Shown: in pieces, positions 87 through 4,921 of the stretch | Numbering within the stretch: position 1 is the stretch's first letter | Layout: every line of letters begins with the position of its first letter | NCBI GenBank assembly: GCA_018623955.1 | Contig: JAAZUX010000084.1 | Span: 1 to 5,006 of the forward strand | Origin: Flavobacteriaceae bacterium | GTDB taxonomy: Bacteria > Bacteroidota > Bacteroidia > Flavobacteriales > Flavobacteriaceae | DNA length: 5,006 nt | Direction of reading: 5' to 3' | The notes under the pieces: model-generated | What the model was told of the DNA's origin: nothing | The model's database searches: none | The model's input: the letters and a program-made list of their open reading frames with translations, nothing else | Program-made: the position numbers and the translations under genes

Positions 87-118
87 TTTTGCAAAAAAAA
101 ATAAAATTCGGATATTTG
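87..118 (+). promoter_or_regulatory. Candidate Bacteroidota-type promoter for the arg operon
   Basis: TTTTG at 87-91 matches the Bacteroidota -33 element. GATATTTG at 111-118 matches the -7 consensus TAnnTTTG at five of its six fixed positions, the first T being G. The 19-nt spacer is within the known range for this promoter class. Transcription would then start at about 122-125, only a few nucleotides before the leader ORF at 127. This is a match to a short degenerate consensus in AT-rich DNA, so it is a candidate only. It is supported by lying just where the GC-rich leader begins. Confidence 0.45.
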
Positions 119-137
119 CATTTCATATGAAAGATGC
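118..137. repeat. Palindrome at the predicted transcription start (possible operator)
   Basis: TTTCATATGAAA (121-132) is a perfect 12-bp palindrome. Its flanks GCA (118-120) and TGC (135-137) extend the dyad, with two unpaired bases (133-134) on the right side. It overlaps the end of the -7 element, the predicted start of transcription and the ATG of the leader ORF, a position where a bound repressor would block initiation. It does not match the usual ARG box (TGAAT-N4-ATTCA), so no regulator is assigned. Chance is possible for a 12-bp palindrome. Confidence 0.3.
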
Positions 138-204
138 AACGACATACTCCTTGGAAACCGCCGCAATTTACAACCCGGCTCCACTTCGTCCACGCCGCCC
201 CTAG
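127..204 (+). CDS. Putative Arg/Pro-rich leader peptide of the arg operon
   Basis: This 25-codon ORF runs from ATG (127) to TAG (202-204). It begins MKDATTYSLE and ends PAPLRPRRP, so seven of its last nine residues are Arg or Pro. The three Arg codons are CGT (187), CGC (193) and CGC (196), with the last two in tandem just before the stop. It lies between a candidate promoter and the first arg gene, is followed directly by competing hairpins, and sits in a GC-rich island. These are the hallmarks of a leader peptide whose translation reports on charged tRNA-Arg. The peptide itself probably has no function. No Shine-Dalgarno is visible, as is normal in Bacteroidota, and the mRNA may be almost leaderless here. 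The ORF is too short to prove by coding statistics, and I do not recognise a named family. The main alternative is chance in a structured RNA leader. Confidence 0.6.
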   Translation: MKDATTYSLETAAIYNPAPLRPRRP

Positions 205-241
205 CGGGTACATTTCTCTATTCGAGACTCAGGTGCGTCCG
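173..241 (+). promoter_or_regulatory. Putative attenuator: anti-antiterminator and antiterminator arms
   Basis: Three mutually exclusive pairings can be traced by hand. Arm 1, ACCCG (173-177), lies inside the leader ORF and is fully complementary to arm 2, CGGGT (205-209), just after the leader stop. Arm 2 can instead pair with 237-241 (GTCCG, including two G-U pairs), closing a longer structure that also holds a small TCTC/GAGA hairpin (215-218 with 224-227). That structure uses the left arm of the terminator-like hairpin at 224-246. A ribosome waiting at the Arg codons (187-198) would cover arm 1 and free arm 2 to form the antiterminator. A ribosome reaching the stop at 202-204 would cover arm 2 and let the terminator form. 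Individual stems are only 4-5 bp, so folding energy must be computed. Confidence 0.45.
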
Positions 242-251
242 GTCTCATTTT
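224..251 (+). terminator. Putative attenuator terminator hairpin in the leader
   Basis: GAGAC (224-228) pairs with GTCTC (242-246). Inside, GG (232-233) can pair with CC (239-240) around a TGCGT loop. The stem is followed by ATTTT (247-251), so it resembles a weak intrinsic terminator between the leader ORF and the first enzyme gene. The stem is short and has an internal loop, and the T-run is only four bases, so strong termination is not assured. Its position 20 nt after the leader stop, and its overlap with the antiterminator pairing, are the main reasons for the call. Confidence 0.4.
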
Positions 252-297
252 CCAAAACTTATAACCTATTTTTTCAATCTAAAAACGTTTGTCAATA

Positions 298-822
298 ATG
301 GAATTGATTATTGCCAATTCAAAACATATTATACACGCCCAAGACATCAGTACATGCATCGGCGAATCGGCCAAAATGCGAGGTACCGGTATCGCCCGAA
401 GGAGTCCGGAATACATCAGTAAAAAGATGGAAGCAGGCAATGCCGTCATTGCCTTGGAAAACAATGAATTCGCCGGCTTTTGCTATATCGAAGTTTGGGG
501 TCATGGAAAATACGTGGCCCACTCCGGTTTGATCGTCTCCCCCGATCACAGAGGTAAAGGGCTGGCTAAGCAAATCAAACAAAAAGTGTTTGATTTGTCT
601 AAAAAGAAATTTCCCGATTCTAAAATATTTGGAATTACCACCGGAAAAGCGGTGATGCGGATCAATTTTGAGTTGGGTTACCAACCCGTTGATTTTTCTC
701 AACTTACGGACGATCCCGATTTTTGGAAAGGCTGTCAAACCTGTAAGAATTATGATGTGCTGACCCGAACAGAAAGAACTATGTGCCTGTGTACGGGCAT
801 GTTGTATGACCCAAGACAATGA
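298..822 (+). CDS. GNAT-family acyltransferase, probable N-acylglutamate synthase (argA-type step)
   Basis: This 174-residue single-domain protein has the GNAT fold signature. Motif A lies around residues 76-98, with the acyl-CoA pyrophosphate-binding loop RGKGLA at 85-90, and a motif B-like segment GITTGKAVMRINFELGY lies at 112-128. As the first enzyme gene of an arg operon, it most likely transfers an acyl group from acyl-CoA to glutamate. In Bacteroides the arginine intermediates are succinylated, so the acyl group could be acetyl or succinyl; the sequence alone does not decide. It lacks the amino-acid-kinase domain of classical E. coli-type ArgA. The C-terminus carries four cysteines (146, 149, 163, 165; C-x2-C then C-x-C), which may bind a metal. 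I chose ATG 298 because a TTG start at 289 would add only three residues (MSI) and homologues as I recall them begin MEL-like. No Shine-Dalgarno is visible. argG follows after 21 nt. Confidence 0.85.
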   Translation: MELIIANSKHIIHAQDISTCIGESAKMRGTGIARRSPEYISKKMEAGNAVIALENNEFAGFCYIEVWGHGKYVAHSGLIVSPDHRGKGLAKQIKQKVFDLSKKKFPDSKIFGITTGKAVMRINFELGYQPVDFSQLTDDPDFWKGCQTCKNYDVLTRTERTMCLCTGMLYDPRQ

Positions 823-843: not shown

Positions 844-2034
844 ATGGAAAATAAAAAATTAGTATTGGCCTACAGCGGCGGTTTAGACACCTCCTATTGC
901 TTGATGAAACTTTCTCAAGAAGGCTATCAGGTTCACGCCATCAGTGTCAATACAGGAGGATTTGATGCTATGGAAGTGGAGGAAATGAAAGCCAAAGCCC
1001 TGCAGATGGGAGCCCATACCTATCAATCCATCAATGCACTAGACTCCTTTTACGAAAAGGTGGTCAAATATTTGGTATTCGGTAATGTTCTCAAAAACAA
1101 CACCTACCCCCTATCGGTCAGTGCAGAGCGAATTGTTCAGGCCATGGAAATCGTAGCCTATGCCAATCAGATTGGCGCCGATGCCATTGCCCATGGAAGT
1201 ACAGGAGCAGGAAACGATCAAGTGCGGTTTGATCTGATATTTCAGGTCATGGCACCGGATATTGAGATCATCACCCCCATCAGAGACCAACAGCTTTCCA
1301 GAGAAGCCGAAATCGCTTACCTCAAAGAAAATGGAGTGGCCTTGTCGTGGGAAAAAGCACAGTACTCCATCAATCAAGGTTTGTGGGGAACCAGTGTGGG
1401 CGGTAAGGAAACCCTGACCTCCCACGATAGCCTTCCCGAATCGGCTTATCCAAGTCAATTGGAAAAACAAGAAGCCCAAAAAGTAACCCTGCATTTTGAA
1501 AAAGGGGAATTGGTAGGAATCGATGGCCAGATGGACAATCCGGTCAATAACATCATCAAATTACAAAAGCAAGCAAAAAAATTTGGTGTTGGCAGAGACA
1601 TCCATGTGGGAGACACCATCATAGGGATCAAAGGCAGGGTTGGTTTTGAAGCTGCTGCCCCTCTTTTGATCATCAAAGCCCATCACCTGCTCGAAAAACA
1701 TACCTTAAGCAAATGGCAACAATTTCAGAAGGAACAACTGGGAAATTTTTATGGGATGCTGCTCCACGAAGGACAATATCTGGATCCGGTCATGCGGGAC
1801 CTAGAAGTCTTTTTGAGCAACAGTCAAACAACGGTTAGCGGAAAGGTTTTCGTAACCCTCCACCCCTATCGATTTGAACTCAACGGTATTGAATCAGATC
1901 ACGACCTGATGAATGCCGCTTTTGGCAGCTATGGGGAAGAAAACAAGGGTTGGTCAGCCGATGACGCCAAGGGTTTTATTAAACTAGTTTCCAACCAAAA
2001 CAAAATATACCAATTCGTAAATAAAGAAAAATGA
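844..2034 (+). CDS. argG: Argininosuccinate synthase
   Basis: ArgG is cytosolic and joins citrulline and aspartate, using ATP (to AMP and pyrophosphate), to make argininosuccinate, the next-to-last step to arginine. The N-terminal PP-loop that binds ATP is plain: AYSGGLDTS at residues 9-17. Further family motifs are HGSTGAGNDQVRF (117-129), which contributes to ATP, citrulline and aspartate binding, and YSINQGLWG (174-182). The length of 396 residues is close to the roughly 400 usual for the family, with no gap or frameshift. The C-terminal half, for example GRVGFEAAAPL (264-274), diverges from the E. coli and human forms and fits the Bacteroidota branch. The gene starts 21 nt after the GNAT gene without a Shine-Dalgarno. 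Its TGA overlaps the argC start as ATGA (2031-2034), which suggests translational coupling. Confidence 0.97.
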   Translation: MENKKLVLAYSGGLDTSYCLMKLSQEGYQVHAISVNTGGFDAMEVEEMKAKALQMGAHTYQSINALDSFYEKVVKYLVFGNVLKNNTYPLSVSAERIVQAMEIVAYANQIGADAIAHGSTGAGNDQVRFDLIFQVMAPDIEIITPIRDQQLSREAEIAYLKENGVALSWEKAQYSINQGLWGTSVGGKETLTSHDSLPESAYPSQLEKQEAQKVTLHFEKGELVGIDGQMDNPVNNIIKLQKQAKKFGVGRDIHVGDTIIGIKGRVGFEAAAPLLIIKAHHLLEKHTLSKWQQFQKEQLGNFYGMLLHEGQYLDPVMRDLEVFLSNSQTTVSGKVFVTLHPYRFELNGIESDHDLMNAAFGSYGEENKGWSADDAKGFIKLVSNQNKIYQFVNKEK

Positions 2035-2990
2035 AAAAAGTAGGCATTATTGGGGGTTCAGGTTATACCGGAGGAGAATTGATCCGATTGGTATTACACC
2101 ACCCCGCATTGGAATTGGATTTTGTGTACAGCACCACCAAACCGGGAACACCAATGCACGATACCCATGCAGATTTACTGGGCAGCGGAGCACCGGATTT
2201 TACAGCAACCATTAACCCAGATGTCGATGTGGTATTCCTCTGTGTGGGGCATGGCAAATCGGTTGGGTTTTTGGAAAAAAATCAATTTTCTAAAAATACG
2301 GTCATCATTGACTTGAGTAACGATTTTAGATTGAAAAAAGACACGCAATTTCAGGACTACGATTTTGTATATGGATTGCCGGAAAATCAGCGAGATAAGA
2401 TCGAAAAAGCCAATGCCATTGCCAATCCCGGTTGTTTTGCAACAGCCATACAACTGGCTCTTTTGCCATTGGCCAAAGCCGGAATCATCCAAGAAGCAGT
2501 CCATGTTAACGCCACCACAGGCAGTACAGGCGCGGGGGTGGGATTAAGTCCCACCGGGCATTTCAGCTGGAGAAATAACAATATCTCTTGGTACAAACCC
2601 TTCACCCATCAACATTTGGGTGAAATTGGGGAAACTCTGGGAGCACCCAAAATATATTTTCTCCCCCAAAGGGGAAATTTTACGAGGGGGATCTTTGCCA
2701 GTTGCTACACCCCTTTTGACGGTGAACTCAACAAAGCAGTTGAAATGTACAAGGAGTATTACAAAAATCATCCTTTTACACACGTATCGGACAATGAGCT
2801 TACTCTAAAACAAGTAGTAAACACCAATCATTGTGCCCTACATTTACATCAATTTGAGAACCAATTGCTGATCACATCGGTCATTGATAATTTGGTCAAA
2901 GGTGCCTCAGGTCAAGCCGTACAGAATTTGAACCTCATCATGGGATGGGAAGAAGATTTAGGCCTACAACTCAAAGCCAGTGTGTTTTAA
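2031..2990 (+). CDS. argC: N-acyl-gamma-glutamyl-phosphate reductase
   Basis: ArgC reduces N-acetyl- (or in some Bacteroidota N-succinyl-) glutamyl phosphate to the semialdehyde with NADPH, the third step of the pathway. The N-terminal Rossmann loop GGSGYTGGEL is at residues 8-17. The catalytic cysteine is Cys135 in NPGCFAT (132-138), and the catalytic histidine is probably among FTHQH (191-195). TGSTGAG (163-169), RGNFTRGIFA (214-223) and NLVKGASGQAVQNLNLIMG (287-305) are family-typical. At 319 residues it is the short, E. coli-like size class and looks complete. Its ATG lies inside the end of argG in an ATGA overlap. The ArgB kinase that supplies its substrate is not in the window and probably lies downstream. 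Confidence 0.97.
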   Translation: MKKVGIIGGSGYTGGELIRLVLHHPALELDFVYSTTKPGTPMHDTHADLLGSGAPDFTATINPDVDVVFLCVGHGKSVGFLEKNQFSKNTVIIDLSNDFRLKKDTQFQDYDFVYGLPENQRDKIEKANAIANPGCFATAIQLALLPLAKAGIIQEAVHVNATTGSTGAGVGLSPTGHFSWRNNNISWYKPFTHQHLGEIGETLGAPKIYFLPQRGNFTRGIFASCYTPFDGELNKAVEMYKEYYKNHPFTHVSDNELTLKQVVNTNHCALHLHQFENQLLITSVIDNLVKGASGQAVQNLNLIMGWEEDLGLQLKASVF

Positions 2991-3008: not shown

Positions 3009-3803
3009 ATGAAAATAGCCATCATCGGATCAGGGAATTTGGGATTGAGTATTGCCAAAGGATTGGTATACAACAATACCTATACTTCACTTTACCTGAC
3101 CAAAAGAGACCTCAGTGCCATCGAAAAATGGGAAGAATACAACAATGTCAAAATCACTTCGGACAATCAAGAGGCTGTAAAAAATGCTGACATCATCATC
3201 TTTACGGTACAGCCCCGACAGTTTGACGGCATCTTAGAGGAAATCAAAGCTGTATTGACCGACAAACATGTCTTGATCTCTGCCATTACGGGCTACAGCA
3301 TCAAGCGAATGGAAGACCAATTGGGAGGGAATTATCCCATCATCCGAAGTATGCCCAACACTGCCATTTCGGTAGGGAAATCGATGACCTGTTTATGTTC
3401 CAATGCAGTAGGAGAAAAAAGGATTGCTATTGCAGAGGCCATTTTCAATGGTCTGGGAACCACCATCAAAATCGCTGAGAAACAAATGCAGGCTGCTACG
3501 GTGGTTTGTGCCAGTGGAATCGCCTTTTGGATGCGACTGATTCGCGCCACTACCCAAGGGGGGGTCCAAATGGGTTTTGATGCGGATGAATCCATGCGCA
3601 TGTCAATGTATACAGCTCTGGGAGCTGCAAGTCTATTGATTGAAACCGACTCCCATCCCGAAACCGAAATAGATAAAGTCACCACTCCTCAAGGCTGTAC
3701 CATTACCGGTTTAAACGAAATGGAACACCAAGGTTTGAGTTCGTCTCTCATCAAAGGAATCATGGCTTCTTTCGAAAAAATTAATGAAATTAAAATGCAA
3801 TGA
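3009..3803 (+). CDS. proC: Pyrroline-5-carboxylate reductase
   Basis: ProC reduces pyrroline-5-carboxylate to proline with NAD(P)H. The dinucleotide-binding loop is GSGNLG (residues 7-12) right at the N-terminus. RSMPNTAISVGKSM (113-126) is the conserved MPN block. The C-terminal family signature appears as VTTPQGCTITGLNEME (224-239), against the usual VTSPGGTT-AGL form. The usual V-KPQ motif reads VQPRQF (67-72), a mild variant. Length (264) is normal. It starts 18 nt after argC behind an A-rich stretch. Its TGA overlaps the argD start (ATGA, 3800-3803). Its place in an arg operon makes sense because ornithine and glutamate semialdehyde, which cyclises to pyrroline-5-carboxylate, are interconverted by ornithine transaminase activity. 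A related reductase acting on another arginine-pathway imine cannot be excluded. Confidence 0.9.
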   Translation: MKIAIIGSGNLGLSIAKGLVYNNTYTSLYLTKRDLSAIEKWEEYNNVKITSDNQEAVKNADIIIFTVQPRQFDGILEEIKAVLTDKHVLISAITGYSIKRMEDQLGGNYPIIRSMPNTAISVGKSMTCLCSNAVGEKRIAIAEAIFNGLGTTIKIAEKQMQAATVVCASGIAFWMRLIRATTQGGVQMGFDADESMRMSMYTALGAASLLIETDSHPETEIDKVTTPQGCTITGLNEMEHQGLSSSLIKGIMASFEKINEIKMQ

Positions 3804-4921
3804 AACTATTTGACGTATACCCGCTTTATGAAGTTTGCCCCGTAAAGGCAAATGATGTCCATGTTTATGACGAGGCAGGAACGGAATATTTGGATCTATA
3901 CGGTGGTCATGCGGTCATTTCAGTGGGACACAGTCACCCCCATTATGTCAACCGATTACAAGAGCAATTACAAAAAATTGCTTTTTATTCCAACGCCGTA
4001 GAAAATCCACTTCAACAACAGTTGGCAGACGAAATCGGGGAACAATCTTGTTTGCACGAATACCAGTTATTCTTGTGCAGTTCCGGAGCAGAGGCCAACG
4101 AAAATGCTCTAAAATTGGCCTCTTTTCACACCGGCAAAAAAAGGGTAGTGGCCTTTAAAAACGCATTTCACGGAAGAACCTCAGCAGCCGTTGCCGCCAC
4201 AGACAACCCAAACATCAATGCTCCGTTGAATCAGCAGCAACAGGTAACTTTTATTCCTTTTAACAACGCTCAGGCGTTGGAAAAAGAATTGCAAAGAGGA
4301 GATGTTTGTGCAGTGATTTTTGAACCCATTCAAGGGGTAGGCGGTCTCGATCAGCCCGAGGATGATTTTGTGTTGAAAATGGAACAATTGTGCCATCAAT
4401 ACGGCACCGCTTTGATCGCCGATGAGGTGCAATCCGGCTTTTCCAGATCGGGTAGCTTTTTTGCTTTTCAAAACAACAACATCAAACCCCACATCATAAC
4501 TATGGCTAAGGGAATGGGTAATGGTTTTCCCGTAGGTGGTATACTGGTCCACCCCGATGTCAAACCCAAATATGGAATGCTGGGGACTACCTTTGGAGGG
4601 AATCACTTGGCCTGCACGGCTTCATTGGCGGTTTTGGAAATCCTAAAAAAAGACAAGCTCCAAAAACATGCCAAAGAAATGGAAGCCTATTTCAGAAGCA
4701 AAGCAGAAAAAATAAAAGGGGCCAAAATCAAAGGAAGAGGGCTCATGCTTGGATTGGAATTTGACTTTGAAGTGGGGCCCTTACGAAAAAGGCTCATCTA
4801 TGAAAAACACATATTTACGGGGGGAAGCAGTAACAAAAACGTTTTGCGAATCCTTCCGCCATTGACCGTGCAAAAAGTTCATTTCGATCAGCTTTTTGAC
4901 GCATTAGAAGATTTATTATGA
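3800..4921 (+). CDS. argD: Acyl-ornithine aminotransferase (class III, PLP)
   Basis: This is a fold-type I, class III PLP aminotransferase of 373 residues, close to the length of bacterial ArgD. It converts N-acyl-glutamate semialdehyde and glutamate to N-acyl-ornithine and 2-oxoglutarate in the cytosol. SSGAEANE (94-101) binds the PLP phosphate, NAFHGRT (121-127) carries the stacking aromatic, and ADEVQSGFSRSG (207-218) gives the Asp that contacts the pyridine nitrogen. The Schiff-base lysine is Lys237 in MAKGMGNGFPVGG, and TTFGGNHLAC (263-272) is the second phosphate-contact segment. Related enzymes include ornithine and succinylornithine aminotransferases. Operon position favours the biosynthetic ArgD role, with acetyl versus succinyl substrate undecided. 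Some ArgD-type enzymes also act on ornithine, which would feed the adjacent ProC. It overlaps both neighbours by 4 nt. Confidence 0.94.
   Translation: MKLFDVYPLYEVCPVKANDVHVYDEAGTEYLDLYGGHAVISVGHSHPHYVNRLQEQLQKIAFYSNAVENPLQQQLADEIGEQSCLHEYQLFLCSSGAEANENALKLASFHTGKKRVVAFKNAFHGRTSAAVAATDNPNINAPLNQQQQVTFIPFNNAQALEKELQRGDVCAVIFEPIQGVGGLDQPEDDFVLKMEQLCHQYGTALIADEVQSGFSRSGSFFAFQNNNIKPHIITMAKGMGNGFPVGGILVHPDVKPKYGMLGTTFGGNHLACTASLAVLEILKKDKLQKHAKEMEAYFRSKAEKIKGAKIKGRGLMLGLEFDFEVGPLRKRLIYEKHIFTGGSSNKNVLRILPPLTVQKVHFDQLFDALEDLL

Follow-up and report, generated by a model that had tools for sequence, protein, structure and literature searches.

A putative arginine-reading leader and two associated hairpins upstream of an arginine operon in Flavobacteriaceae

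Arginine control and the closest described leaders

The best-known control of arginine synthesis is repression by ArgR. The C-terminal domain of this repressor (PF02863) was found in none of 397 sampled genomes of the family, a sample that stands apart from the genome of the window itself (the window being the whole stretch of 5,006 nucleotides analysed here), and the same search was positive in 8 of 14 reference genomes, Bacteroides included. Leaders of the his and trp type resemble the element described below in that a short ORF with codons for the amino acid that is produced lies right after the promoter, with hairpins behind it. However, the his leaders of the same genomes carry a strong hairpin and a U run, whereas the arginine element has neither a U tract nor a covarying antiterminator.

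Two leaders from other bacteria are close in a different respect. In the Salmonella speF leader orf34, as presented in passages of PMC6386406, Arg codons sense arginine, a hairpin lies near the stop codon and there is no intrinsic terminator; pausing at these codons acts on RNA structure, on RNase G and, via translation of the leader, on Rho. The likeness is one of descriptions, and the system differs in that it controls putrescine synthesis and uses Rho, sequestration of a start site and RNase G. The Arg codons of the Staphylococcus aureus leader peptide rbfL likewise sense arginine, yet these are AGA/AGG codons, and the leader blocks translation of a biofilm regulator (excerpts of PMC13009471).

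Among RNA motifs of Bacteroidetes, portions of PMC2864571 present Bacteroid-trp (RF01692), Flavo-1 (RF01705) and the GUCCY-hairpin, of which Bacteroid-trp is listed as cis-regulatory. The arginine element differs from these in having no Rfam match; the GUCCY-hairpin, which appears in the table of that paper without an Rfam model, lies outside this comparison. For F. psychrophilum, passages of PMC9723704 point strongly to attenuation by leader peptides ahead of amino acid operons, naming no arginine operons, and the present idea may be foreshadowed there. Searches of an open-access library gave no report of an arginine leader in Bacteroidetes.

The arginine operon and its leader ORF

The window contains the beginning of an arginine operon with the gene order GNAT-argG-argC-proC-argD:

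298..822, + strand: GNAT acetyltransferase, first gene of the operon (PF00583; ATG at 298)
844..2034, + strand: argG, argininosuccinate synthase (PF00764, PF20979)
2031..2990, + strand: semialdehyde dehydrogenase of the argC type (PF01118, PF22698; probable argC from its position)
3009..3803, + strand: pyrroline-5-carboxylate reductase of the proC type (PF14748, PF03807)
3800..4921, + strand: class III aminotransferase of the argD type (PF00202; probable argD from its position)

The nearest GNAT homologues belong to uncultured Flavobacteriaceae and reach up to 94% identity. In many genomes of 0.6 Mb (e.g., G071, G273 and G102), the GNAT match is located inside an open frame of approx. 590-620 codons, and GNAT is possibly fused to another protein there. 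Regions upstream of homologous GNAT genes in relatives are given here as L-numbered loci, 80 of which form the core set. Upstream of the first gene, the following features were delimited:

111..118, + strand: likely -7 promoter box, GATATTTG, 8 nt 5' of the leader ATG, with five of the six specified bases of TAnnTTTG
127..204, + strand: leader ORF of 25 codons plus TAG (sequence; Arg-rich ORFs in relatives; variability by codon position)
187..198, + strand: control codons CGT-CCA-CGC-CGC, i.e., Arg-Pro-Arg-Arg (frequency of Arg in 173 sequences)
202..204, + strand: leader stop codon, located within hairpin P1 (sequence; relatives)

The peptide encoded from ATG127 to TAG202-204 is MKDATTYSLETAAIYNPAPLRPRRP. 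This 25-codon ORF with Arg codons at its end before TAG had been picked out by the first-pass annotation; it is present as described, and Arg-rich ORFs recur before homologous GNAT genes. Upstream of the 80 core GNAT genes, short ORFs that end in Arg codons are the rule, with peptide ends such as RRRP, RPRRP and RRPLGV directly before the stop codon. At L015 and L022, the upstream sequence is too short for the leader to be judged, and at L068 the leader ORF has no ATG start. A larger set of 173 unique sequences from 185 loci was selected with a search pattern in which P1 and the P2 loop (of the hairpins described in the next section) are largely fixed, and these sequences therefore cannot test those parts. 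An ATG-initiated ORF in the leader frame that stops at P1 occurs in 143 of the 173, in line with conservation of the short Arg-ending ORF in relatives; among the other 30, 20 start with TTG or GTG at -84 or -87, nine have one of these codons elsewhere, and L007 combines an ATG with a later stop.

The placement and the choice of the Arg codons are both distinctive. Over the nine codons that precede an invariant CGC, the leader frame holds 2.86 Arg codons on average versus 0.22 and 0.69 in the other frames (n = 173), and the three codons before this CGC encode Arg in 92%, 51% and 33% of the sequences. Farther upstream, Arg codons reach at most 30% of sequences at any single position. The Arg codons are retained, through synonymous as well as other substitutions, while the rest of the peptide diverges across the 173 sequences. 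Among leader Arg codons, 479 of 525 (91%) are CGT or CGC; in the GNAT genes, these two codons make up 232 of 823 (28%) and AGA is the commonest. Attenuation leaders commonly show pronounced codon bias, according to part of PMC1183508. In 13 ungapped close sequences, variability over codons 9-20 is highest at third positions (0.288 vs. 0.205 and 0.218 at the other two), and it is near zero over codons 21-25.

Transcription probably begins just 5' of the leader ATG. In 38 of 137 relatives (background 1.6%), the window not being among the 38, an exact TAnnTTTG, the box named in a passage of PMC9723704, lies no more than 26 nt from the leader ATG, and in 29 of these 38 it sits 7 nt away. Judged from sequence comparison, it is highly probable that a true regulatory leader with Arg codons precedes the operon.

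Several other ORFs were noted in this region. A second ORF in the +1 frame (134-298) overlaps the leader as well as both hairpins, P1 and P2, and ends in a stop codon that shares bases with the GNAT ATG; this frame is open in 13 of 13 sequences (the window and L001-L012); it was rejected as a gene, its variable part having no coding pattern. Tandem leaders occur at L100-L102, L105-L108, L192, L215, L217, L219 and L220, where a second short Arg-rich ORF lies approx. 130-210 nt before P1. At loci L109-L127, a conserved leader ORF of another kind lies 220-330 nt before GNAT, its Arg codons (CGG and AGA) scattered along the frame; where it stops, a possible hairpin was read by eye. There are also GNAT genes (e.g., at L135 and L137-L148) with no upstream ATG ORF containing at least three Arg codons.

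Hairpins, spacing and distribution of the element

The leader ORF and the segment between its stop codon and GNAT contain the following structural features:

152..183, + strand: P0, hairpin within the leader ORF (152-155 and 160-163 with 176-179 and 180-183; fold of the window)
195..209, + strand: P1, stop-codon hairpin (family register 197-200:206-209; window register 195-198:204-207)
210..223, + strand: U-rich spacer of nearly constant length (spacing and composition in relatives)
224..246, + strand: P2 hairpin (224-229:241-246, bulge 230-231, 232-233:239-240, loop UGCGU at 234-238)
247..297, + strand: G-poor tract reaching the GNAT start, with 2 G in 51 nt

The P0 region of 74 relatives (a set with mutual identity below 74%) folds better than codon shuffles, with a mean z of -0.85 and 41% of sequences below -1, and this comparison gives modest support to P0 as a predicted hairpin. 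P1 has the form GCCC-loop-GGGU in the family, whereas the window favours the neighbouring register CCGC:GCGG; in window RNA, the two registers have probabilities of 0.04 and 0.74, respectively. P1 is nearly invariant among relatives, so its pairing is tested in few sequences: GGGU has become GGGC in five, and in L128, which the covariance model missed, inspection by eye shows compensated pairing in AGGCC-GUAA-GGUCU. The U tails behind P1 score 2.44 versus 1.68 at random positions, with 40% versus 20% at 2.5 or above, and P1 may itself act as a weak terminator or, together with the U-rich spacer, as a pause site. Were its 3' arm set free, a common partner for it appears unlikely from the predicted folds: of the best folds of 172 sequences, 126 have the partner 3' of the P2 loop, 12 within that loop and 17 ahead of P2, the remaining 17 leave the arm unpaired, and partner positions vary across the 20 folds that were compared.

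In relatives, the P2 stem is topped by GG:CC and a UGNGY loop, and most sequences leave one to three bases unpaired on the 5' side. When 3' arms were swapped among the 74 sequences, which hold 33 distinct versions of this arm, the mean stem fell from 5.76 bp to 3.20 bp (sd 0.22; maximum of 1000 shuffles 3.82). In 90 aligned covariance-model matches (from 91 sources, L128 being the one missed), seven of the eight P2 pairs are altered on both sides and two-sided changes fill 75 cells versus 23.2 after shuffling, figures that come from an alignment fitted to the structure. From the same alignment, RNAalifold predicts P1 and GG:CC, and the outer P2 stem is absent; in ribosome-free window RNA, the P2 stem has a probability of 0.30. 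At L016 and L045, the P2 loop reads AUAUU and an additional hairpin with a T5 run lies just behind P2; this extra hairpin is possibly a true terminator that replaces the usual output.

The GGGU end of P1 and the GG of P2 are on average 21.0 nt apart (sd 1.0, n = 173), and 55.6 nt (sd 9.6, n = 166) lie between P2 and the GNAT ATG. At -45 to -15, G makes up 4.1% before 114 arginine starts versus 14.2% before 203 control starts, the latter being starts of predicted ORFs that may include promoters. This G-poor tract may be merely the translation start region of GNAT, the A-rich positions of which agree with F. johnsoniae data in part of PMC6847099. Masking of the GNAT start by P2 and use of the P2 loop as a Shine-Dalgarno-like site were both set aside upon inspection of the sequence.

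With regard to distribution, a strict pattern of the element occurs in 208 of 397 family genomes, with two matches each in two genomes; the reversed pattern has one match in the genome table. At the 80 GNAT loci, 70 match the pattern and nine more match the covariance model (E<=0.001), i.e., 79 of 80, with L063 as the sole exception (E 0.28). The model was run against 54 chosen loci; of the 30 best loci of a wider GNAT search, 13 lack the pattern, and L113-L117 among these lay outside the model search. In 13 full genomes, the model gives one strong match (E below 1e-10) in eight, a weak one in G204 (0.0055) and nothing better than 0.12 in four. In the phylum sample, for which the comparison was partly run under stricter filters, 13 of 247 genomes match, and all 13 also belong to the family sample. 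Comparison with Rfam gave no family above its threshold in the window and no match to the element in eight loci; a single weak fluoride match at L067 (E 3.6) lies elsewhere in that locus, off the element.

From leader translation to the transcript

An element in which a cis-acting, ribosome-read arginine sensor controls P1, and in which P1, acting with P2 at a constant distance, brings about early loss of the transcript, stands in our estimate at about even chances. Its sensor half is supported by comparison of relatives; we infer the stalling, the occlusion of P1, the direction in which the operon is controlled and all of the output. Under poor charging of tRNA-Arg for CGY codons, the ribosome would stall at the last Arg codons and cover the 5' arm of P1, which could then not fold. 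A ribosome extends about 12-13 nt beyond the first base of its A site, and on this geometry it would cover that arm whenever one of these codons occupied the A site. With ample arginine, the ribosome would reach the stop codon within P1 and depart, and P1 would fold, thereby reporting that the leader has been read through. P1 and P2 at their fixed distance might then cause the transcript to be lost before the genes, either by termination at a site other than a normal U-tract terminator or by RNA cleavage. The leading candidate for this step is Rho acting on the G-poor tract, the alternative being cleavage by an RNase; a Rho domain was found in eight of eight genomes checked, and the speF leader shows that outputs through RNase G or Rho exist.

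The leader ORF, the Arg codons with their CGY bias, the sequence of P1, the pairing of P2, the spacing, the G-poor tract and the failure to find ArgR all count in favour of the proposal. Against it count the low probability of the P2 stem and the lack of its outer part in the consensus fold, the scant variation of P1, the above-random U tails behind P1, the possibility that the G-poor tract is only a start region, and the position of some Arg codons too far upstream for shielding P1. A non-classic output is likely. The fuller statement, that a family without detectable ArgR uses an Arg-codon leader whose output needs neither an antiterminator nor a U-tract terminator, with a stalled ribosome blocking P1, which acts together with P2, is put at somewhat below even chances.

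The best surviving alternative, itself unlikely, is that the leader affects not transcription but how the mRNA is translated or how stable it is, e.g., through coupling to the GNAT start or a guarded RNase site. The lack of a U-tract terminator agrees with it, as do the use of RNase G at Salmonella speF (passages of PMC6386406) and the block of a start site through Arg codons at S. aureus rbfL (excerpts of PMC13009471). However, the GNAT start lies far beyond P2 for direct coupling, and to block a start during starvation would run counter to what a biosynthetic operon needs.

Less likely again is the classic attenuator of the trp/his type, which the first-pass annotation had proposed: hairpin 224-246 as intrinsic terminator, and 205-209:237-241 together with 215-218:224-227 as antiterminator. 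All of the arms that it named are present as sequence (ACCCG 173-177, CGGGT 205-209, TCTC 215-218, GAGA 224-227, GTCCG 237-241 and ATTTT 247-251), and the Arg control codons, the stop codon and the hairpin behind them fit such logic; what does not hold is a conserved competing antiterminator and a U-tract terminator. Of the three pairings expected to covary, hairpin 224-246 does so strongly, but the antiterminator pairings show no covariation. The pairing of arm 1, ACCCG:CGGGT, has a probability of 0.001 in ribosome-free window RNA, and ACCCG is found only in the window among 15 close sequences (the window and the 14 nearest loci). Pairing of the spacer with the 5' arm of P2, which includes TCTC:GAGA, reaches -1.84 kcal/mol versus -1.83 with exchanged spacers, and 44 of 100 shuffles are equally good; a pair extending GGGU:GYCC is seen in 14 of 74 sequences, rarer than the 21.1 obtained by shuffling. 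Within the group of the window, the geometry is nevertheless possible. TCTC is kept in 12 of the 15 close sequences, and with everything 5' of 205 masked in RNA ending at 251, the antiterminator has a probability of 0.92 in L006, 0.42-0.47 in L001, L005, L008 and L012, 0.17 in the window and at most 0.11 in the other nine of the 15.

The terminator side of this scheme fares similarly. The GAGAC/GTCTC hairpin (224-246) is real and covarying, but in relatives it mostly has no U tract. As a control, loci upstream of hisG in the same genomes (L222 and L224-L227) encode His-rich leader peptides with strong U-tract terminators; these are the five of seven his loci with a full leader and terminator, L223 ending inside the hairpin and L221 being read in another frame. 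The P2 tail score averages 1.77 over 185 loci versus 1.68 at random positions and 3.8-5.5 in the five his attenuators, and 27% of loci versus 20% of random positions score 2.5 or above. The mean energy of P2 (-7.2 kcal/mol) is about half that of the his hairpin (about -15). The tail score of the window, 3.13, is borderline and, like the extra hairpin and T run after P2 at L016 and L045, speaks for a terminator; with family tail scores near random, P2 was rejected as an intrinsic terminator. A trp/his-type switch as the conserved mechanism is thus not supported by the sequences compared, and this reading had overlooked the stop-codon hairpin P1, the constant spacing and the fact that most relatives have no U tract.

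It is more doubtful still that P2, with its bulge, GG, UGNGY loop and CC, is the site of a putative RNA-binding protein to which the leader merely adds. The loop and its closing pairs are much more conserved than the stem, and at L107 and L129 GG:CC is replaced by GA:UC with the loop unchanged. Nonetheless, the loop is altered at L016, L019, L045 and L063, where the leader and P1 are retained, the fixed spacing couples P2 with P1, and there is no candidate protein. A chance ORF with hairpins of no function is scarcely credible in view of the conservation, codon bias and covariation, and as regards sequence conservation it is already refuted.

A ribosome-read arginine sensor acting through P1 and P2 would have consequences beyond this operon. 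Its downstream half departs from the terminator/antiterminator scheme, and this raises a testable question, i.e., how the position of a ribosome is read out with no competing hairpin. Judged by searches of an open-access library, an arginine leader of this kind may be new. If the proposal is true, arginine would become one more amino acid whose production a translating ribosome gauges, and leader-peptide control would gain a new kind of output module, in a family in which ArgR was not found in the 397 sampled genomes and the leader-linked element occurs in 208 of them.
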